Below, in pieces: positions 2,795-18,520 of a stretch of 20,914 nucleotides of DNA. The notes below the pieces were generated by a model. The model worked only from the letters and a program-made list of their open reading frames with translations, was not told the origin of the DNA and did not search any database. This DNA comes from a virus. Every line of letters starts with the position of its first letter. The first letter of the stretch is position 1. Location of the stretch: the IMG/VR virus record IMGVR_UViG_3300006919_000585, positions 1 to 20,914 of that record; one strand, given 5' to 3'. The translations under genes were made by a program, and so were the position numbers.

Positions 2795-3021
2795 ACCTCA
2801 TTCCCAAAGTGATACCTCACGCACACCTGCGCATGACCTGCCCCGACTGTGGCGCAGGCGTGGCGGCGGCTCTCACCGTTGCCGACGAAGCCATTCGCTC
2901 TTTCATTGATAAGCACCTATCTTGCGGAACGCCCTCATCCCGATGCTCGGACGAACCGGGGGCGGCAGGGAAGTGGGGCATTCACATCCCCGTTAGGGTT
3001 GTTTGGGAGGCGAGCGAATGA
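2791..3021 (+). CDS. Small zinc-binding protein (76 aa)
   Basis: ATG 2791 overlaps the previous stop (ATGA). C17-P-D-C20 forms a classic knuckle; C45 and C52 are candidate partner ligands. The last six residues, VWEASE, come from the shared junction element GGAGGCGAGCGAATGA, which also serves as ribosome-binding site and start of the next gene. Function unknown; it sits in a run of similar mini-genes (2585-3582). Confidence 0.72.
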   Translation: MNLIPKVIPHAHLRMTCPDCGAGVAAALTVADEAIRSFIDKHLSCGTPSSRCSDEPGAAGKWGIHIPVRVVWEASE

Positions 3022-3025: not shown

Positions 3026-3263
3026 CGTTCCCGACTGCATCCTGTGCGACCTGCCCGTGCATCCCCACCACCACCCCGCAACGGGGGAGGTGTGTTGGAC
3101 GAGAGGCCACAACGCACGACCCCTTGAGGGTCGGGTCTGCGATGCCTGTCATCCTATCGTTCTCGCCGTGCGCTTCGGGTATTCCCTGCCGGACGGACTC
3201 ACTGCCCTGCGCATTCTCGGCAAGGCCGAGCGTGCCGCTTTCGACACGGAGGCGAGCGAATGA
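3018..3263 (+). CDS. Small zinc-ribbon protein (81 aa)
   Basis: I chose ATG 3018, which overlaps the previous stop and follows GGAGG at 3006-3010; a TTG at 3003 would fall inside that site. C7/C10 and C41/C44 frame a single Cys4 ribbon with a His-rich loop between them (HPHHH, residues 15-19) and an additional C26. The C-terminal half is helical. It ends in EASE, from the junction sequence that starts the next gene. No family recognised. Confidence 0.75.
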   Translation: MSAVPDCILCDLPVHPHHHPATGEVCWTRGHNARPLEGRVCDACHPIVLAVRFGYSLPDGLTALRILGKAERAAFDTEASE

Positions 3264-6712: not shown

Positions 6713-7510
6713 ATGGCGTGGGGCTTAACGACTCTCAACGAAACGGACTTCTATGTTGATGAGAGCATCCTGTCCGAGATAACCCATGTGCTTCTCGTCA
6801 ATACGGAGGGCGCATCATCGCTTCCCCAAATGCTCGTTGCGAGCGCAGTCATGGGCGAAGAACCCGTGGGCTACATCACCTCAAAACACGCGCTCGTTGA
6901 ACCGCACCGAACCCTTGATGAAACGACGACGATGTGGCCGATTTTTCGGAAGGGTCTGACTTTGTTCGTGTGCGTGAACGCACTGCCCGTCATATCCCAT
7001 GCGCATAGTGCGCAACGCAACGAATGGTTGTTCAATTATCCACCAGCACGGGACATAGCGGCTTATTTCAAATGGGCGGCGCACTTCGGCATCCTCACGA
7101 CCTATGCGCTCAACCGCTTGTTCGACACAACGCCGCCTGACTTCCCCGCTATGCGTGTGGACGCACGCAAAATGGGAACGGATGAAGCACCGCAGTCCTT
7201 GCAGTCAATATGGGGTTGGTTGCCTGCGCATCTGTTCACGCTCATGTCCGATGAGCCTTCAAGCATTTTCATCATGCCGAGCGAAACGGCGACGGCCACC
7301 TCAAGGGAAGCAATCACCATTGACCCCGCCGACTTTGAAACGATGTGCGACCTGCTCAGGGAGAGCGGCTTCTCAATCCCCAAAGAAACCGCTAAAATGG
7401 CGGAGGATTCATATAACGGGATTTCATCGGAAGCCATAGAGCGAGTCAAGGAATTGATGGGCGCGCATGAAAAGACGATTGACCGAGGAAGCGGAGGGAT
7501 GTATCAATGA
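6713..7510 (+). CDS. Possible PAC2-like protein (265 aa)
   Basis: ATG 6713 fits the promoter 30 nt upstream; the frame extends to 6632, but that part lies in AT-rich non-coding sequence. The layout recalls PAC2 (proteasome assembly chaperone) proteins of archaea: an early strand then a 'quasi-GxG' turn and helix (VLLVNTEGASSLPQMLVASAV), a strand with VGYITS, then LFVCVN, a helix with AYFKWAAHFGI, and a C-terminal helical part (DPADFETMCDLLRESGFSIP) like the conserved end of that family. Some hallmark glycines are absent. In hosts these proteins relate to proteasome assembly. The assignment is pattern-based; unknown function is the fallback. Confidence 0.78.
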   Translation: MAWGLTTLNETDFYVDESILSEITHVLLVNTEGASSLPQMLVASAVMGEEPVGYITSKHALVEPHRTLDETTTMWPIFRKGLTLFVCVNALPVISHAHSAQRNEWLFNYPPARDIAAYFKWAAHFGILTTYALNRLFDTTPPDFPAMRVDARKMGTDEAPQSLQSIWGWLPAHLFTLMSDEPSSIFIMPSETATATSREAITIDPADFETMCDLLRESGFSIPKETAKMAEDSYNGISSEAIERVKELMGAHEKTIDRGSGGMYQ

Positions 7511-7677
7511 TTACCGAGCAAGGATGCAAGTTTCAAGCAGTGAGCGTATGCAACACGACACATCAAGACCGTTTCGGATTCAAGACTCAGCGTGCTGAAA
7601 TCACTTTCAGGTGCTTGCTTTGTGGTGGCGTGAAGAAGGAGACAATGCCCTATCCCGTGCGGAGGTGTGTCAAATGA
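7507..7677 (+). CDS. Zinc-binding microprotein (56 aa)
   Basis: ATG 7507 overlaps the previous stop and its own TGA overlaps the ATG of the MCM-like gene (ATGA at both ends). Cysteines at 7, 15, 36, 39 and 54, with a C36-L-L-C39 knuckle, suggest one zinc site. It is in the same transcription unit as the replicative ATPase, so a helicase partner role is conceivable but not shown. Confidence 0.65.
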   Translation: MITEQGCKFQAVSVCNTTHQDRFGFKTQRAEITFRCLLCGGVKKETMPYPVRRCVK

Positions 7678-8960
7678 CGGACATATTCACACGACTGCAA
7701 ACCTTCTGCGACAAAAACCACTTGGTTGATGTGGAGGACAAAGTGCCTATTTTCATCTGCTCGATTGGCGCACACCTGTTCAACGCCGTGAACAAATGCT
7801 CAATGTGCGACTTCGACCCAATGACTGCGCCCGAAGGTTCGTTTGTGATTGAGGACTGCCCACTGCGCCATGACTCAATCCCGATTTACACGCCAGCATC
7901 CCGCCTTGCCGACACACGCATTAACATCCTGATGCGTGGTGCAAAGGGTTCGGGGAAGAATGTTCTCATTGATTTGTTCTGCGCAGAAAATACGGGTCTG
8001 CTATGGAACAACGAAGCGTTTGAGGGTGTTGGTTTCCGCACGATGATTGGCGCTAACTCCATCACCGAAGCAGGTATGTTCGGCTCGGTGAACGAAGAAG
8101 GGCAAGTGATGGGTCGCCCCCTCGCACGCGATTTGTGCGGCGGCTTCCTATGCTTTGAAGAGTTTAGCGCCATGTCCGACGCAGGCAAGAAAGACCATAG
8201 CATTGACATGAAGAATCAAATGCTCACCTCGCTCGACAGTGGGCGTGTGAACAAAGCCATGCGCAGTGGGTGGGTGCGCTACAACACACGCCTAACGATG
8301 TGGGCGGGAACGCAACCTGCTCGCTTTGAATTGGAGTCGGGTCTTGACCGTCGCTTCTTCATCATTGACATTGAAATGAGTCCCGAAAAGGAATTGCTCT
8401 ATAAGAAAGCGCAGAATGCGCAGGCCAGCCTCACGCCCCAAGAACGGGTTGAATTGGCCGAGGAAGCCATCGCACTGCGCCATTGGTTCATTGACCGCCA
8501 GCGCAAAGTCATGGAGAAGCGGCCTCAAGGTGTTGTCTTTGGCGAGGACTTTGAGGAATGGACGCTTCAAGAGTCTGTGCGCTCATTTGAGAGCGACCTG
8601 TTCCGAAGGCTCGCCATCGGCTATGCGATGATGAACGGCGATTGGGAGGATAAGGAATTGCTCATGGTTAATTTGGACGACCGACTGCGCTCAATCCTCG
8701 AATCGTCGCTCAAAATGCGCAGAAATGTCATGGATGAGGACATTCGCTTGATTCGCACGACCTTTTGGGAGAAGGATGTGCCGCGCTCAACACTGCTCAA
8801 AGACATAGCACGCTTAGTCTGCAACAACGACTATCAATCAGCGAAGCGATGGATGGAGGACTATCTGCTCAATCAGCCGTGGTTCACCGAATACATCCCT
8901 AAGCGCGATGGTCGGGGTCGCCGTGGCGTTATGTGCAGATTCGGATTTGAAGAGGTGTGA
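7674..8960 (+). CDS. MCM-like AAA+ ATPase, candidate replicative helicase (428 aa)
   Basis: I start at ATG 7674 (ATGA overlap); an in-frame start at 7611 would lie inside the microprotein before it. Walker A is GAKGSGKN (89-96) and the Walker B region GGFLCFEEFSAM (156-167) lines up with the MCM block GGxxCIDEFDKM. A pre-sensor-1 stretch (MLTSLDSGRV), sensor-1-like TMWAGTQPARFEL (208-220) and arginine-finger-like GLDRRF (223-228) follow in MCM order. The C-terminal ~70 residues could be a winged helix. There is no MCM N-terminal OB/zinc domain. Two oddities: Asn replaces the Walker A Thr/Ser, and Glu replaces the Walker B Asp. Other members of the MCM/MoxR clade are possible alternatives. Confidence 0.85.
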   Translation: MTDIFTRLQTFCDKNHLVDVEDKVPIFICSIGAHLFNAVNKCSMCDFDPMTAPEGSFVIEDCPLRHDSIPIYTPASRLADTRINILMRGAKGSGKNVLIDLFCAENTGLLWNNEAFEGVGFRTMIGANSITEAGMFGSVNEEGQVMGRPLARDLCGGFLCFEEFSAMSDAGKKDHSIDMKNQMLTSLDSGRVNKAMRSGWVRYNTRLTMWAGTQPARFELESGLDRRFFIIDIEMSPEKELLYKKAQNAQASLTPQERVELAEEAIALRHWFIDRQRKVMEKRPQGVVFGEDFEEWTLQESVRSFESDLFRRLAIGYAMMNGDWEDKELLMVNLDDRLRSILESSLKMRRNVMDEDIRLIRTTFWEKDVPRSTLLKDIARLVCNNDYQSAKRWMEDYLLNQPWFTEYIPKRDGRGRRGVMCRFGFEEV

Positions 8961-8962
8961 GC

Positions 8963-9202
8963 ATGGCGAAGCATACACGATTCCTTGACGCTTGCGCACG
9001 ATACCTTGCGCAGAAGGGCGAAGCCAACATTGACGACATTCTCAACGGCTTGACGACCACGAAAGGAACACGGATGAACAGTCGCCAATTCCCTGAACGA
9101 AAAAGCGCAAAGGTGCGCTTGACGGACGACCCTCGATTTGAACGCATTGAATACGGTGGACGGATAACCTGCTTCCGTCTGCGCAAGAGAGGTGATGAAT
9201 GA
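8963..9202 (+). CDS. Small winged-helix candidate (79 aa)
   Basis: ATG 8963 has GAGG (8952-8955) at good distance; GTG 8957 overlaps the previous stop but leaves almost no spacing. The pattern is helix with RFLDACARYLAQKG, then DDILNGL, then a basic segment and KVRLTDDPRFERIEYGGRITCFRL, in which the final strands would form the wing. Its order of elements is shared with the next gene and with the N-terminal half of the protein at 12069. Likely DNA-binding, by inference. Confidence 0.7.
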   Translation: MAKHTRFLDACARYLAQKGEANIDDILNGLTTTKGTRMNSRQFPERKSAKVRLTDDPRFERIEYGGRITCFRLRKRGDE

Positions 9203-9501
9203 TGCCCAACCCAAAGAGAAGATACCGATACAAACGCTGGCTCGACAAATGCTATGAATATCTGCGGGACACGGGTGATGTGCGCACTGCGCAGTGGTTG
9301 TTTGAAAACATCGGCTACACTGTAAGCGGAGAGCGCATGAAGAACACACTTCCGCCGAATGTTGGAAGTGCGGCGCAAAAATTGTCCCGCGATGGCCGTT
9401 TCCGATGCTTTGATATGGAGGGTGTCTCTTACGGTCGGGACGGGCAAGCATACAAAGCGCACGCATGGGGTGTTGAATATGAAAAGCAAATGGTTGATTG
9501 A
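9199..9501 (+). CDS. Small winged-helix candidate, related to the preceding gene (100 aa)
   Basis: ATG 9199 overlaps the previous stop (ATGA); ATG 9202 follows directly. RWLDKCYEYLRDTG, then a helix pair, then AAQKLSRDGRFRCFDMEG mirrors the preceding protein (RFLDACARYLAQKG ... KVRLTDDPRFERI), suggesting tandem duplication and divergence. The C-terminal part adds about 20 residues. The next gene starts inside its 3' end (23-nt overlap). Confidence 0.72.
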   Translation: MMPNPKRRYRYKRWLDKCYEYLRDTGDVRTAQWLFENIGYTVSGERMKNTLPPNVGSAAQKLSRDGRFRCFDMEGVSYGRDGQAYKAHAWGVEYEKQMVD

Positions 9502-13360: not shown

Positions 13361-13522
13361 ATGACTTTCAAGAAAACGACCGCTATGCGCACATCGGACT
13401 CCCCGACCTGCCTCTATGGTTCACGGTGCGTTTGCTATTGTCATTCGCACGGCGCTCTCGGATGCACTGATTGCTTGAGGGGCTTGAAGTGCGTTGATGT
13501 AAGAATGGAGGGAAACCTATGA
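13361..13522 (+). CDS. Cys-rich microprotein (53 aa)
   Basis: ATG 13361 abuts the preceding stop; the TGA overlaps ATG 13519 of the kinase gene. Seven cysteines (17, 23, 25, 27, 35, 38, 44) and H28, H30 are packed in the middle, unlike the two-knuckle ribbons of the neighbours, perhaps a binuclear or knotted zinc site. It is preceded by GAGAGGG and its own 3' end carries GGAGGG for the next gene. Confidence 0.58.
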   Translation: MTFKKTTAMRTSDSPTCLYGSRCVCYCHSHGALGCTDCLRGLKCVDVRMEGNL

Positions 13523-14130
13523 TTATCGGAATACACGGTCGAATGCGCACAGGAAAGAGCGAATTGGCTCGGCTCATCAAAGCCCACTATGAAAGCGACT
13601 TTTCTCATGTGCGCATCGCTTCCTTTGCGAACCGACTCCGCCAAGAATGCGCAGAAATGATGTTCCCGCTTCACGGAAAGGAAGGCGCTCGCCGCATTTG
13701 GGACGAATACGAGGACTCTTACAAAGAGTCTATGCGTCCCGTGCTTCAAGCGGTGGGTCAGGCAAAGCGTATGCTCATCAACACCGACTATTGGGTTCAC
13801 GCATTGGCGGAGGATAACCCCGACTACGGGAATCATTCAACACTTCTCATCATTGATGATGTGCGCCATGAGAACGAAGCGCGCTGGATTCTTGAGAATG
13901 GCGGCGTATTCATCCGTCTTGACGCATCCCGTGAAACGCTTATCGAGCGTGGCGCAACCGAAGAACGCCTTGCGCACTTCTCCGAAACGGCCATGAGCCG
14001 AATCACGGACACCGAGCGAGAATATGCGCACCGATGTTTGCGCATTAACACTTCGGGACTTTCCGTTCAAGGGACATTCAAGGGTCTGCGCAGATTCATA
14101 ACCGAATTGATTATGGGGGTTGAAGAATGA
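13519..14130 (+). CDS. Deoxynucleoside monophosphate kinase (203 aa)
   Basis: A P-loop, GRMRTGKS at residues 7-14, opens the protein, as in phage dNMP kinases of the T4 gene 1 type, which phosphorylate dNMPs for viral DNA synthesis. Supporting features: AVGQAKRMLINTDYWVHAL (the conserved 'Q..R...D..W' region), LLIIDDVRHENEA (Walker B-like strand with D-x-R), GGVFIRLDA, and a helical lid rich in Arg and Glu. About 200 residues is a typical length. ATGA coupling links it to both neighbours, just before the replication block. Confidence 0.88.
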   Translation: MIIGIHGRMRTGKSELARLIKAHYESDFSHVRIASFANRLRQECAEMMFPLHGKEGARRIWDEYEDSYKESMRPVLQAVGQAKRMLINTDYWVHALAEDNPDYGNHSTLLIIDDVRHENEARWILENGGVFIRLDASRETLIERGATEERLAHFSETAMSRITDTEREYAHRCLRINTSGLSVQGTFKGLRRFITELIMGVEE

Positions 14131-14300
14131 GTCGTGGAGGCATCGGAGTCTGTATGTCCTGCAAGAACCGCCGAAAAATCGTTGCTACGGTTAGCGTCGA
14201 ATTGCTTGGGTGCGACTTCGGCTCTCGCTATCTATGCCGAGCCTGCGCAAAGGAGATGTTCACATGGAAGGACTTTGATTCGGGGAGGGAATTGTATTGA
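14127..14300 (+). CDS. Zinc-ribbon microprotein (57 aa)
   Basis: ATG 14127 overlaps the kinase stop, and the TGA overlaps the TTG start of the clamp-loader gene (TTGA). C9-M-S-C12 and C37-R-A-C40, with an additional C29, form a Cys4 ribbon with intervening strands. The short frame is bounded by exact couplings on both sides. Confidence 0.62.
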   Translation: MSRGGIGVCMSCKNRRKIVATVSVELLGCDFGSRYLCRACAKEMFTWKDFDSGRELY

Positions 14301-15196
14301 TTTGGTGGGAGAAGCACAGGCCGCAAACCCTCGGTGATTTCATCGGGCAAGAGCATATCATTGATGAAATGCGAGCCATCTGCGAAGGTGGTGCGCCAAT
14401 GCAACACTTCATTTTCTATTCCCCCGAAGCGGGAACAGGCAAGACAACCCTCGCAAACATTATTGCGCAGGCACGGGGCTACACCATGCACACATTCAAT
14501 GCGTCGTCCAAGCGCACACGGGGAATCGAGTTTATTGAAGAGGACATTGTGTTCCTCGCCAATTGCGGCAACGATGAAATCATCATCCTTCTTGACGAAG
14601 CAGACCGCCTCACCATTCAAGCGCAGGATGCGCTCAAAGGCGTGATTGAGAACGCCACCTGCTATTTCATTCTCACCTGCAACGACCTGAGCAAAGTGTC
14701 GCCGTGGTTGCAGTCCCGTTGTCAAGTGCGCACATTTTCTGCGCACAGTCAAGACGACATGGTGAACCGACTTGAGCAAATCGCAGAAGCCGAGGGGCTT
14801 GCGTTTGACAGGACGGAGTTATCCACTATCGCCATCGCCCATCGTGGCGACCTGCGCAACGCATTGGGTGCGCTTCAATCAATATCCTGCCTTGAGCCTG
14901 CGGAAGCCGAGCGTTTTCTTTTGCGCTTGAACGAAGGGTTCAATGCTCGACGGTTCTTGACCTTGACAACAAAGGAAAAGGCCGTTGCCGAAGCCGTGAA
15001 AATGACGGGTGCGCAGAATATGCGTCGTATCGTGCGAGAGGTGTTTGACTTCGCCGTTGAGAGCGAAGCAACACCAGCCATGATTCAGCGTGTAGTCGAA
15101 GCATCCATCATCAGTGAACGGGATTTGGTGAACGGGGTGGACGAAAGCATAGTCCGTTGGGACTACGCCCGAATGCTCTCCGTTGGGTTTATATGA
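14297..15196 (+). CDS. Replication factor C small subunit, clamp loader (299 aa)
   Basis: This AAA+ ATPase loads the sliding clamp on primed DNA. Motifs in order: an N-terminal W-x-x-K-x-R-P-x-x-x-x-D box (WWEKHRPQTLGDFIGQ), Walker A SPEAGTGKT (42-50), Walker B IILLDEAD (96-103), sensor 1 FILTCN (124-129), the SRC arginine-finger box (140-142), then sensor 2 region and a helical collar. The first Walker A glycine is Ser. Slightly shorter than host RfcS (about 315-330). Start TTG 14297 overlaps the previous stop with GGAGGG 6 nt upstream. No obvious large subunit is in the window. Confidence 0.95.
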   Translation: MIWWEKHRPQTLGDFIGQEHIIDEMRAICEGGAPMQHFIFYSPEAGTGKTTLANIIAQARGYTMHTFNASSKRTRGIEFIEEDIVFLANCGNDEIIILLDEADRLTIQAQDALKGVIENATCYFILTCNDLSKVSPWLQSRCQVRTFSAHSQDDMVNRLEQIAEAEGLAFDRTELSTIAIAHRGDLRNALGALQSISCLEPAEAERFLLRLNEGFNARRFLTLTTKEKAVAEAVKMTGAQNMRRIVREVFDFAVESEATPAMIQRVVEASIISERDLVNGVDESIVRWDYARMLSVGFI

Positions 15197-15231: not shown

Positions 15232-16470
15232 ATGATGGTTGATAACACAATTATGGAAAGAGTCGCAAAGAATGTCGGATGCGAAGTGCCTCAATTGCAG
15301 GCCAAGCACGAAGAAGTCCTTGCGGCAAACGAAGCCAATTTCAAGGCGATGGGTCTTGAGCAGAACGACATTGAGATGAAGGCTTTGCGCATGGCGGCGG
15401 CTGAATTGCGTGTGGTTGCACAACGACTTGCACGAAGCGGTTGCGAGAACCTTGAAGGAATGTTCATCAGCGTGCCTCGCACGAAGGACATCAGCGCACG
15501 GCAATACGCCAACATGAAGAATACCCTTCGTGGCCTCGATGAAGAAGCACGCACTGCGATGGTTGCGCAAGGCGTGTGCGCACTGTTCCTGAATGACGAT
15601 GTGAACGGCGGTTTCCGCTACATTCACAATTCCTCGCTTGAGAACAAACGCCCCTTTGAAGTGGTTTCCGACGAGAAGCACATGACCGACCTGCCGAAAG
15701 CGGCTATGGACTTGGAGGACGGCACGGGACACTTCGTTTTGATTGCCGACAAATCCGCACCCACTTGGCCTTCGGGCGGCGCTAACTTCCGCTACGGTCG
15801 CTACAAAGCGCAGTCCGAACCAATGCGTGATTGCGTCTTTTTGGGTCGCTCAAAGGACAACAAAAACCTGCGCACAATCCGCATCCGTTTCACGGGCGAG
15901 GACGCAGAAATCCAGCACCCGACCTTCATCCCCGGTCGCATCCCTGCAAAATTGGGACGCAACGGTGATACCGCATACGCAAAGTCGGGCGTTTCCGTTT
16001 TCACGGCAGACCCGGAAGTGGTGAACATTTTCCCTGCACCCCCTCTCGACTCGGACGGCAAGGGCTTGCTTGCAGACCTGACCGATGTTGCCTTGCTCAC
16101 GGGCATGGGCGACCTTGAAACATGGCTCGGCGCTCTCTCGGACAAAGAGAAGTGGGATGCTCAATGCGCAGTGCCTCTTGAGGTTGCGCACATTGACCCC
16201 CGTGAAGGCGGTGGTTATGTCATCACCCTCGCAGACCTCGACATCACCTCCCCGATTCCCCCTATGGATTTGTGGGTTTCCCGTGAAGAGGACGCAAAGG
16301 TGGACTTCTCCGTTGGCTCAATCGTGCTTGCCGTTGGTGGCGCATGGATTGACAAAACGACTGACCTCCCACGCCTCGGTGTGAACGGATGGTGGGTCAT
16401 GGAGTCCATTGAAGCCGTCGCCGTTGAGGAAGTCGTGCTTGAAGAAGGCGCAGAAGAAGGTGGTTGGTGA
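15232..16470 (+). CDS. Possible viral ssDNA-binding protein (412 aa)
   Basis: Placed between clamp loader and RecA-fold ATPase. After a helical N-terminal third (to about residue 80), the protein is beta-rich with OB-like strand patterns (MRDCVFLGRSKDNKNLRTIR and later PLEVAHIDPREGGGYVITLA). The C terminus is acidic and ends in Trp (EEGAEEGGW), like the partner-binding tails of SSB proteins. No zinc site. I chose ATG 15232 because it fits the 44-nt promoter rule; the ATG at 15193, overlapping the previous stop, is the alternative. Function by context and tail, not by recognised homology. Confidence 0.85.
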   Translation: MMVDNTIMERVAKNVGCEVPQLQAKHEEVLAANEANFKAMGLEQNDIEMKALRMAAAELRVVAQRLARSGCENLEGMFISVPRTKDISARQYANMKNTLRGLDEEARTAMVAQGVCALFLNDDVNGGFRYIHNSSLENKRPFEVVSDEKHMTDLPKAAMDLEDGTGHFVLIADKSAPTWPSGGANFRYGRYKAQSEPMRDCVFLGRSKDNKNLRTIRIRFTGEDAEIQHPTFIPGRIPAKLGRNGDTAYAKSGVSVFTADPEVVNIFPAPPLDSDGKGLLADLTDVALLTGMGDLETWLGALSDKEKWDAQCAVPLEVAHIDPREGGGYVITLADLDITSPIPPMDLWVSREEDAKVDFSVGSIVLAVGGAWIDKTTDLPRLGVNGWWVMESIEAVAVEEVVLEEGAEEGGW

Positions 16471-16472
16471 AC

Positions 16473-17438
16473 ATGGCTAACGCTTGGGCAAACGCAAAGG
16501 CGAAGGCCACTTCTGCGCAGGACAATGCGCAGACCGACAAACCTCCTGAGAAGGACTTGAAGGCTCACTACGCTCAATTGTTTGAGCGCAAGCGTTCCCG
16601 CACGCAGTCTATCCGCATGGCTCTCGTCGGCAAGGAGAACACCGCCAAGACAGGCACGGCGATTTCGATTGCTCGCCAACACATCGGCGCAGAAAAGGCC
16701 ATCATCATTTTTGATGTGGATAACTCCGCAGTGCAGACGGTTGCCGCCAATTATGGCGACGATGAGAACATTCACATCATCCCGCTCTATGACGAATTGG
16801 ACGACACCATTTTCAATGACGATAACTCCACGGACTACACTGCGCTCATTGACAAAATGGGACACTTCATCAGCCTCGTTGCGCAGAAGTGCAGGGATGG
16901 TGAAGTCGGTGCAGTCATCATGGACGGTTGCTCAACCTTCCTCAAGTGGTGTGAACACGCCATGACTGATGTGCTGATGAACCGAAGCAAGAATCCAATC
17001 AATGTCGAGGACGGCGACCGATTCAATCAGCAAGAATGGCGCATTCGCAACCAATTGTTCCGTGATGTGATGAACCGTGCGCACCAATTGCCCGTTGATG
17101 CCGTCTTTTACACCTTCCACCTCAAGGATGTGAAGCAATTCGCAGACATCGGCAACGGGCAGAAGGGCTTGATGAAGGTTGGTGAAGTCCCTGAATGGGA
17201 AAAAGGCACTATGCGCCTGTTCAGCCAGCAATTGTGGCTTACCCGATACACCAAGAAAGGCGACATCGCCGCAGGTGTGAAGGCAGACAAAACGCTCTCC
17301 GACAACGAATGGGTCATCCGTTGCTCTATCGAAGAGATGAAGGGCTTCAATCAAGAACACCTCGGCACGACGCACGATGTTCTCTCCGTCAAGGATGGCG
17401 AAGTGAATTGGACGGGACTGCCTTTCTTGAAGTGGTGA
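16473..17438 (+). CDS. RecA-fold ATPase, Sak4-like (321 aa)
   Basis: ATG 16473 follows GGTGGTTGG; the frame extends slightly upstream over the previous stop. A flexible, Ala-rich, charged N terminus of about 45 residues precedes a RecA-like core: Walker A GKENTAKT (53-60), strand IIIFDVDN (78-84), Walker B VGAVIMDG (145-152), and a later strand DAVFYTFH. The layout matches phage AAA_24/Sak4 recombination ATPases, which act with an SSB in ssDNA annealing or strand exchange. Walker A has Ala in place of the second Gly, as in MCM proteins, so ATP binding is plausible. Archaeal RadA is less likely: no HhH domain. Confidence 0.85.
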   Translation: MANAWANAKAKATSAQDNAQTDKPPEKDLKAHYAQLFERKRSRTQSIRMALVGKENTAKTGTAISIARQHIGAEKAIIIFDVDNSAVQTVAANYGDDENIHIIPLYDELDDTIFNDDNSTDYTALIDKMGHFISLVAQKCRDGEVGAVIMDGCSTFLKWCEHAMTDVLMNRSKNPINVEDGDRFNQQEWRIRNQLFRDVMNRAHQLPVDAVFYTFHLKDVKQFADIGNGQKGLMKVGEVPEWEKGTMRLFSQQLWLTRYTKKGDIAAGVKADKTLSDNEWVIRCSIEEMKGFNQEHLGTTHDVLSVKDGEVNWTGLPFLKW

Positions 17439-17439
17439 T

Positions 17440-17712
17440 ATGCGCAAAGTCGTTAAGCGCGTCGTCCTTGCGAGCAATCGCAGTGAGCGTGCGCACTACG
17501 CAGTCGAATGTGCGCAGAACGGGCGTTTGTCCTATGTTCTGTGCCGTGGCTTCCCGTCAATCGGCGCACATCAGCGCATCCCCGAAAGCGAAGTCGGACG
17601 GGAATGCAAACAGTGCGCAAAGACGCTTGAGAAGATGCTTCGATTGCAGGGCGACAGGTTTATATTGACGACAGTGGGTGGTGAAAAACATGACAAAGAT
17701 GAAGAAGTCTGA
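17440..17712 (+). CDS. Small basic zinc-binding protein (90 aa)
   Basis: ATG 17440 lies one base after the previous stop. C24, C35 and C56-x2-C59 could hold one zinc. The protein is basic at the N terminus (MRKVVKRVVL) and acidic at the very end. Its last 20 codons run through the clamp promoter (TTTATAT, 17659) and over the clamp start, so its C terminus is doubly constrained. No family recognised. Confidence 0.7.
   Translation: MRKVVKRVVLASNRSERAHYAVECAQNGRLSYVLCRGFPSIGAHQRIPESEVGRECKQCAKTLEKMLRLQGDRFILTTVGGEKHDKDEEV
17659..17665 (+). promoter_or_regulatory. TATA-like promoter for the clamp gene, leaderless class
   Basis: CAGGTTTATATTGAC: box start 31 nt before ATG 17690 with C|A at the ATG. 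It lies inside the preceding gene and would allow the clamp to be made independently of the upstream operon. A GGTGG at 17676-17682 could also support translation of longer mRNAs. Confidence 0.55.
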
Positions 17713-18520
17713 TTTGTTGGCCTTGCTGAAAATGACGAAGCGGGAAGCCGTTGTCGGTGGGAAGAAGTTATCGCAGGTTTCCTCGACGGTTCTGCAAGCG
17801 AATGGCGACTACATCACCACGACTTCAATCGTGCGTGATGGCGTTTCGAGCATTGGCCGATTCACTGTTCCCACGACCGACGACGAACCTGCTCTTGAGA
17901 ACATCACCGTTGCGAACATTGACCTGCTCATCGGCGCACTTTCTGCGCACGGCTCGGACATTGACATTTCATACGCAGACGGCAAAATCACGCTCAAATC
18001 GGGAAGCAAGCGCACGACCCTCGCAAGCGACGGGAGAGCGAAGGCATTCCCGCACACGAATAAGACCGTTGGTGAATGGTCTGCCGATTCCGAGGCACGA
18101 TTCACGAAGTCCCTGTGCGACATTGAATTGAACCAATACACCATGCAGGACGGCACTTCTCTTGATGGCGTGGTCGCCACTGTTCCCACGAAGGACTTGC
18201 TCGACGCTATCCGCAGTGGTTCAATCAACGGGCAGATGATTGAAGCGACCCGACTGAACCTGAATCCCGACTGCACGCTTGAGGTGGTCGCAGGTGATGA
18301 AATGAAGGGCGCTACACGCACTGTTCTTGATAGTGGCTCTCCCGAAGGAACGACGCTCACAACCTCCATCGGCGGTGGCTTTGAGAACATTCTTGCGCAC
18401 ACCGAGTCCGAGAATTGCGACTTGGTTTTCTTCGACTTCTCGGCGTATGACGCTGGCGTTGCCGTTGTTCTGCGCACAAACGAGGCAGTCGTCTTTCAAC
18501 GGGAGGCCAACAATGGTTGA
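17690..18520 (+). CDS. PCNA-like sliding clamp (276 aa)
   Basis: Position next to RFC, SSB-like and RecA-like genes, length near that of PCNA (about 250), and a duplicated all-alpha/beta pattern support a DNA sliding clamp. It would encircle DNA and tether PolB. Signals: LSQVSSTVLQANGDYITTTS (first-domain strands), an interdomain linker around FPHTNKTVG (residues ~120-135), FTKSLCDIELNQYTMQDGTS, a second-domain helix (TKDLLDAIRSGSINGQMIE), then DCTLEVVAGD strands like those of PCNA domain 2. Sequence similarity is weak, so the call rests partly on context. I chose ATG 17690 by the leaderless promoter; ATG 17699 and GTG 17678 are alternatives. Confidence 0.85.
   Translation: MTKMKKSDLLALLKMTKREAVVGGKKLSQVSSTVLQANGDYITTTSIVRDGVSSIGRFTVPTTDDEPALENITVANIDLLIGALSAHGSDIDISYADGKITLKSGSKRTTLASDGRAKAFPHTNKTVGEWSADSEARFTKSLCDIELNQYTMQDGTSLDGVVATVPTKDLLDAIRSGSINGQMIEATRLNLNPDCTLEVVAGDEMKGATRTVLDSGSPEGTTLTTSIGGGFENILAHTESENCDLVFFDFSAYDAGVAVVLRTNEAVVFQREANNG

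Follow-up and report, generated by a model that had tools for sequence, protein, structure and literature searches.

A diverged MCM-like AAA+ protein with a variant nucleotide-binding site, encoded beside a PAC2-fold gene in uncultured viruses

Background

MCM-like helicases have been described in mobile elements, among them the MCM-like helicase of SCCmec and the Bacillus cereus MCM (PMC5862659). The magroviruses (Magrovirales, Aoguangviridae), archaeal tailed viruses with genomes of 90-110 kb, encode an MCM helicase together with their own PolB, clamp and clamp loader (PMC10768690), and chaperonin genes are likewise known from viruses of marine group II archaea (PMC5332604, PMC10768690). An archaeal MCM core is reported to unwind DNA without the N-terminal tier, which adds processivity even when supplied separately (PMC4619765, citing Barry et al. 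2007). A different group of archaeal proteins is also relevant here: the HbYX motif, through which proteins dock to the proteasome, forms the tail of PbaB (PMC3605417).

The window analysed here, which is the whole of a 20,914-base virus record, contains an open reading frame at 7674-8960 (+) that encodes an AAA+ P-loop protein of 428 aa. The original prediction described this ORF as MCM-like, with GSGKN at Walker A and CFEEF at Walker B, and re-reading of the sequence returned exactly these coordinates and motifs.

Results

A conserved gene in uncultured viruses

Relatives of the protein were found by a profile scan in at least 184 IMG/VR stretches. A tblastn search of 50,697 phage records gave zero matches, and 47 pattern matches from a scan of GTDB genomes included no true relatives. 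Neither the single protein nor the family produced anything significant against Pfam, PHROGs, NCBIfam or PDB sequences, and no Pfam or NCBIfam model reached its cut-off; the Pfam MCM model matched only one of 45 family members, at an E of 0.034 that does not reach the cut-off, and AAA_5 (PF07728) matched seven of 45 with a best E of 0.012. A BFVD search returned one nameless viral protein, 58% identical, the remaining matches being weak. The ORF is a real gene under selection: it is intact at full length in 100 distinct sequences, and dN/dS is 0.02-0.08 across ten close pairs. The carriers are uncultured marine viruses that make up a large group, and their hosts are probably archaea.

Similarity to the MCM motor

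An AlphaFold (AF2) model built from 45 sequences (pLDDT 85.2, pTM 0.86) was compared with known structures. The best 50 matches listed by Foldseek against the PDB were all MCM-containing entries (best E 9e-10), and the best 50 PDB entries in VIA-align were likewise all MCM, with Z of 21.7-23.6; 8kg6_5, for example, aligned with a Z of 23.5 and an rmsd of 2.9 over 288 residues. The model has an MCM-type AAA+ core, with both the helix-2 insert and the pre-sensor-1 hairpin. When the family profile was compared with 61 archaeal MCMs, the whole protein scored 74.5% (E 2.7e-5, 260 columns) and the core alone 86.3% (E 4.8e-6), in an alignment that spans the SITEAG/STAAG helix-2 region and the sensor-1 strand. 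The seed of the MCM search was a consensus-like piece, which served only for fetching real archaeal proteins. Control comparisons scored at most 1.9% for 30 shuffles, 1.7% for the reversed profile, 19.7% for clamp loaders (RFC small subunit), along 78 columns that do not include the P-loop, and 4.2% for a CobS/MoxR-like profile that is shallow, holding two sequences. The weakness of the RFC match, and the presence of a separate clamp loader in the same virus, distinguish the protein from an RFC clamp loader. The original prediction had proposed comparing the protein with the MCM and MoxR families, and had favoured a diverged MCM-like viral helicase; this remains the leading reading, as MCM chains head both structural searches and the MCM profile outscores every control. 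Together, the predicted model and the profiles support an MCM-like protein, and do not support a canonical MCM.

Several elements of the MCM motor can be placed along the chain. Profile alignment and DSSP of the model position a helix-2-insert region, SITEAGMFGSVNEEGQVMGRPLA (8067..8132, +), as MCM STAAGLTAAVVRD...LEAGALVLA. A predicted pre-sensor-1 beta hairpin at residues 191-204 (8244..8285, +; model strands 191-196 and 199-204) has at its tip, as in the AKAG hairpin of MCM, a basic residue 197 that is R or K in 100/100 sequences. The invariant T213-Q214 (8310..8315, +) falls on the ANP of MCM in the profile alignment and corresponds to sensor 1, for which MCM uses the Asn of AANP. The arginine-finger candidates are the invariant pair R226-R227 (8349..8354, +), in LDRRFF where MCM has LLSRFD, while R303-S-F-E306 (8580..8591, +), likened by eye to MCM R-Q-L-E, is sensor-2-like, with R303 kept in 99/100 and E306 in 100/100 distinct sequences; R226/R227 and R303 stand at plausible places for the arginine finger (SRF) and the trans-acting sensor 2 Arg of MCM. 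The order of helices and strands in the model suggests that residues 336-424 (8679..8945, +) form a winged-helix-like segment. The C-terminal piece alone scored 2.3% against the MCM profile, leaving the lid and winged-helix parts without profile support of their own, and the winged helix is therefore assigned from secondary structure only.

Variation in the nucleotide-binding site

The Walker A motif of the window is GAKGSGKN (residues 89-96; 7938..7961, +), in which residue 96 is Asn, encoded by AAT at 7959-7961. The Walker B motif is FLCFEEF (residues 158-164), with E162-E163 in FLCFEE (8145..8162, +). Among the 100 distinct sequences, window included, GSGK is invariant, whereas 69 carry Ser at position 96 and the other 31 carry Asn. 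The Glu-Glu pair is present in 100/100 and is, on this comparison, a property of the whole family. Whether the two unusual residues are kept in relatives, a question raised in the original prediction, is thus answered differently for each, the Glu pair being universal and the Asn limited to one branch plus one outlier. The further suggestion that the Asn and Glu changes compensate each other did not hold up, because E162 does not track Asn96: Glu-Glu is constant, while Ser or Asn differs by branch.

Thirty of the Asn96 sequences form one supported branch of the tree (SH-aLRT 97), with a single long-branched outlier (L075) placed elsewhere, and monophyly of all Asn96 rows was not rejected (p-AU 0.146). 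Asn96 is written as AAT in 27 sequences and AAC in 4, which argues that it has been kept by selection or descent and does not stem from a single error; Ser96 is written with five codons. Within the Asn96 branch, dN/dS is 0.03-0.08 and every other catalytic position stays invariant. Sequencing error can be discounted as the source of the Asn and Glu-Glu motifs, since a 100% identical protein occurs in two independent assemblies and a 95% identical one in three more, all five keeping both. The original prediction had named canonical residues in close relatives as the mark of such an error; all close relatives carry Asn, and Ser is found only in the farther branches. Sequence comparison thus indicates that Asn96 is a genuine inherited variant of one branch, with no sign of a dead enzyme.

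Two other positions accompany Asn96. Asp100 is present in 31/31 Asn96 sequences, as is Ser189, which occurs in just two of the 69 with Ser96. This pairing is not proof of compensation, as no more than one or two independent changes can be counted on the tree. The window's branch would have changed Ser96 to Asn, or the reverse, the tree being unrooted. The likeliest reading is that Asn96 would still serve the Mg site through its side-chain oxygen, or that Mg would be bound more weakly, yet sufficiently. A literature search for natural Asn at the Walker A Ser/Thr position of AAA+ proteins found nothing on point, and the Ser/Asn split within this family offers natural pairs for asking whether Asn serves the Mg site of a P-loop.

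The N-terminal region

Only about 83 residues lie ahead of strand 1. In the structural alignment they fall where the AAA+ part of MCM begins, and this N-terminal piece scored 1.5% against the MCM profile. The N-terminal tier, comprising the A domain, zinc finger and OB fold, is absent from the chain. The original prediction, that neither an OB nor a zinc domain is attached, was therefore right for the OB fold and mistaken for zinc, as a putative zinc knuckle, C42-x2-C45-x16-C62-x3-H66 (7797..7871, +), is present in cis. It follows the N-terminal helices and precedes strand 1, in the loop ahead of Walker A that joins helix 24-44 to strand 84-88 of the AF2 model, and its residues are kept in 97-100 of the 100 distinct sequences (C42 100, C45 100, C62 97, H66 99). 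From its pattern of residues, this motif may bind zinc. The zinc finger of MCM sits in the N tier, whereas the motif of the viral family is placed before Walker A. Because archaeal MCM cores unwind DNA without the N tier (PMC4619765), its absence here does not conflict with a helicase function.

A 56-aa Cys-containing ORF (7507..7677, +), between the upstream gene and the MCM-like gene, had been proposed as a zinc domain acting in trans. It is not conserved: anything similar is confined to the closest kin, and its absence from most relatives speaks against such a role. Short ORFs, this one among them, separate the two genes in the window and in part of its kin.

The upstream PAC2-fold gene

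The gene upstream (6713..7510, +) encodes a 265-aa protein with a predicted PAC2 fold, similar to PbaA and PbaB. In 85 of 87 loci, these being the loci with a readable upstream gene of at least 225 aa, this position is occupied by the same family, and in 51 of the 87 its stop codon overlaps the start of the MCM-like gene as ATGA; the window itself is without such an overlap. The model of the upstream protein (pLDDT 90.1) has the PAC2 fold, with PbaA as the best structural match (Z 15.5, rmsd 4.2 over 217 residues, 9% identity), and the Pfam PAC2 model left it unmatched. A profile score of 0.1% and the PAC2 fold led to rejection of the idea that it represents an MCM N tier split off as a separate gene. 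A strict HbYX C-terminus, a motif that many but not all PAC2 proteins carry, is found in 9 of the 87 upstream proteins, including that of the window (MYQ). The looser ending hydrophobic-[YFW]-any occurs in 27 of 28 upstream proteins of the Asn branch, and is missing from 45 of 59 in the Ser branches.

That an MCM-like gene is so constantly paired with a PAC2-fold gene is the most unexpected finding of the analysis, and one that can be tested directly. We know of no MCM relative that works with a PAC2 protein. It is conceivable, though doubtful, that the two form one machine, in which a chaperone-type ring would act as a collar or loader replacing the MCM N tier, or would link the viral helicase to the host proteasome.

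Replication genes in the window and its longer relatives

Downstream in the window are genes for a deoxynucleoside monophosphate kinase (13519..14130, +; phrog_139, E 7e-28) and an RFC small-subunit-like clamp loader (14297..15196, +; phrog_168, E 2.5e-42; PF00004), and, tentatively, a RecA/Sak4-like P-loop ATPase (16464..17438, +; phrog_124, E 0.09 only) and a sliding clamp (17678..18520, +; E 0.015 against bacterial beta clamps, from a profile of 4 sequences). Two small ORFs directly 3' of the MCM-like gene (8957-9202 and 9199-9501) look winged-helix-like by eye and have no meaningful Pfam match. Elsewhere in the window, GAGGCGAGCGAATGA is present in four exact copies (475-489, 714-728, 3007-3021 and 3249-3263), where shuffling gives an expectation of 0.1 with up to two mismatches allowed. 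The copies lie at junctions of small Cys-rich ORFs, leading to a common EASE C-terminus, and look like reusable start/stop coupling elements.

PolB is present in 18/18 long relatives, which are linear records of up to 72 kb and possibly incomplete. In these 18 records, SF2 (PF00271) and UvrD (PF00580) models found no match, a DnaB search gave two sub-threshold P-loops, one of them within a dNMP kinase-like ORF (G002), and no true helicase, and no canonical MCM was found. As the records are linear and may be incomplete, this does not prove that other helicases are absent. By coverage, the nearest counterparts of the G002 PolB are polymerases of haloarchaeal viruses, and the same record encodes ERCC4 and PD-(D/E)XK nucleases. 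A chaperonin gene (PF00118, E 1.3e-16) is found in another long relative (G008; L030:16359-17285), and the candidate primase of the relatives had no match in the PDB.

Two of the long relatives have Pfam MCM matches that were considered as a second, true MCM and rejected. The matches belong to separate, longer ORFs, and the G002 copy is of AAA_5/CobS-MoxR type, matching AAA_5 at E 1.4e-13 as against 4.3e-5 for MCM. This second AAA+ protein has a hydrophobic N-terminal segment (L082:13086-15188 in G002; G003:34229-36055 in L085). HRTV-27 gp63 (L172:28799-30283), a hypothetical P-loop protein beside the primase of a haloarchaeal virus, was also tried as an equivalent and set aside, with no detectable profile match.

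Discussion

The protein is probably a minimal, diverged MCM-type viral replicative helicase. Such a protein would be a ring reduced to the AAA+ motor, which contains the helix-2 insert and the pre-sensor-1 hairpin, and to a winged-helix-like tail behind it, and would lack the N-terminal A/OB tier. It would most likely be hexameric, with ATP bound between subunits for its presumed ATPase activity; the pore hairpins would move the ring along DNA, and the viral genome would be unwound to serve the PolB, clamp loader and clamp that the virus itself encodes. Some observations count against a helicase. Walker B is Glu-Glu and sensor 1 is Thr-Gln, the family has no significant match among Pfam, NCBIfam or PDB sequences, and the nearest conserved gene encodes a PAC2-fold protein and not a replication protein. 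Furthermore, MCM-type AAA+ cores can be repurposed, and a common fold alone shows no function.

One alternative is a degenerate or dead ATPase, in which, with the Mg-binding Ser/Thr and the Walker B Asp both gone, a structural or regulatory ring would be left. The same change at Walker A cripples other NTPases such as Ras, in the S17N type of P-loop mutant, and here the usual Mg-binding residue is changed in the window and Walker B across the family. An inactive enzyme, which the original prediction had also allowed for, is nevertheless unlikely: 69 of the 100 distinct sequences carry the normal Ser, the Asn branch keeps its other catalytic positions invariant at low dN/dS and writes its Asn with two codons, and the strongly purifying selection on the gene argues against it. 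Another alternative dispenses with DNA unwinding and makes the protein an AAA+ remodeller or unfoldase, working with the PAC2-fold protein and possibly also with the 20S proteasome of the host. This would accord with the near-constant upstream family and its frequent ATGA overlap, with the structural match of that family to PbaA/PbaB (Z 15) and with the HbYX-like tails of the Asn branch. The match of the motor core, however, is to MCM rather than to the proteasomal AAA clade, the strict HbYX motif is confined to those nine upstream proteins and even the looser tail is missing from most of the Ser branches, and other helicase candidates were not found in the records of the long relatives; an unfoldase is accordingly given a low probability.

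The protein might alternatively melt origins, or act as an initiator or loader, with the host MCM carrying out elongation in place of a viral helicase travelling with the fork. A winged-helix-like tail and a missing N tier would fit a protein that remodels DNA in this way, and the long relatives yielded no canonical MCM. Against this stand the profile similarity to MCM, the basic tip of the pre-sensor-1 hairpin and the poor showing of the ORC/Cdc6-like Pfam model (only E 0.08, in 5 of 45 family members), which together make this role quite improbable. If the replicative helicase reading is correct, the MCM motor with which this widespread group of marine viruses replicates lacks the N tier, carries its zinc-type motif at a different place and has Glu-Glu at Walker B, and the family represents a natural test of which parts of MCM are needed for unwinding.

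Comparison with known systems

The AAA+ tier of archaeal and eukaryotic MCM is the closest counterpart of the viral protein (Z of about 23 over about 280 residues), sharing the helix-2 insert, pre-sensor-1 hairpin, STAAG/SITEAG region and, judged by predicted secondary structure, a winged-helix-like C-terminal tail. Unlike MCM, the viral family has no N-terminal A/OB/zinc tier and carries its zinc-type motif before Walker A, replaces DE with EE at Walker B and Asn with TQ at sensor 1, and gives no significant single-sequence or Pfam match; one branch also has Asn in place of Ser/Thr at Walker A. The upstream protein shares its predicted fold with the PAC2 family (PbaA, PbaB, Pba1-Pba2), in which PbaA and PbaB are archaeal proteasome chaperones, and differs in being viral, in lying beside an MCM-like AAA+ gene and in having a docking-like tail in only part of the family. 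In the Asn branch this tail recalls the proteasome-docking HbYX tail of PbaB (PMC3605417), which most other branches are without.

The SCCmec and Bacillus cereus helicases, compared by description only, are similar in being MCM-like motors of mobile elements. The magroviruses are alike in their set of PolB, clamp, clamp loader and helicase, the helicases again being compared by description, and the chaperonin is shared with one relative of the window, although their genomes of 90-110 kb exceed the records found here, which reach 72 kb. The gene content of the window and its long relatives, one of which has the chaperonin, resembles that of the marine group II archaeal viruses.
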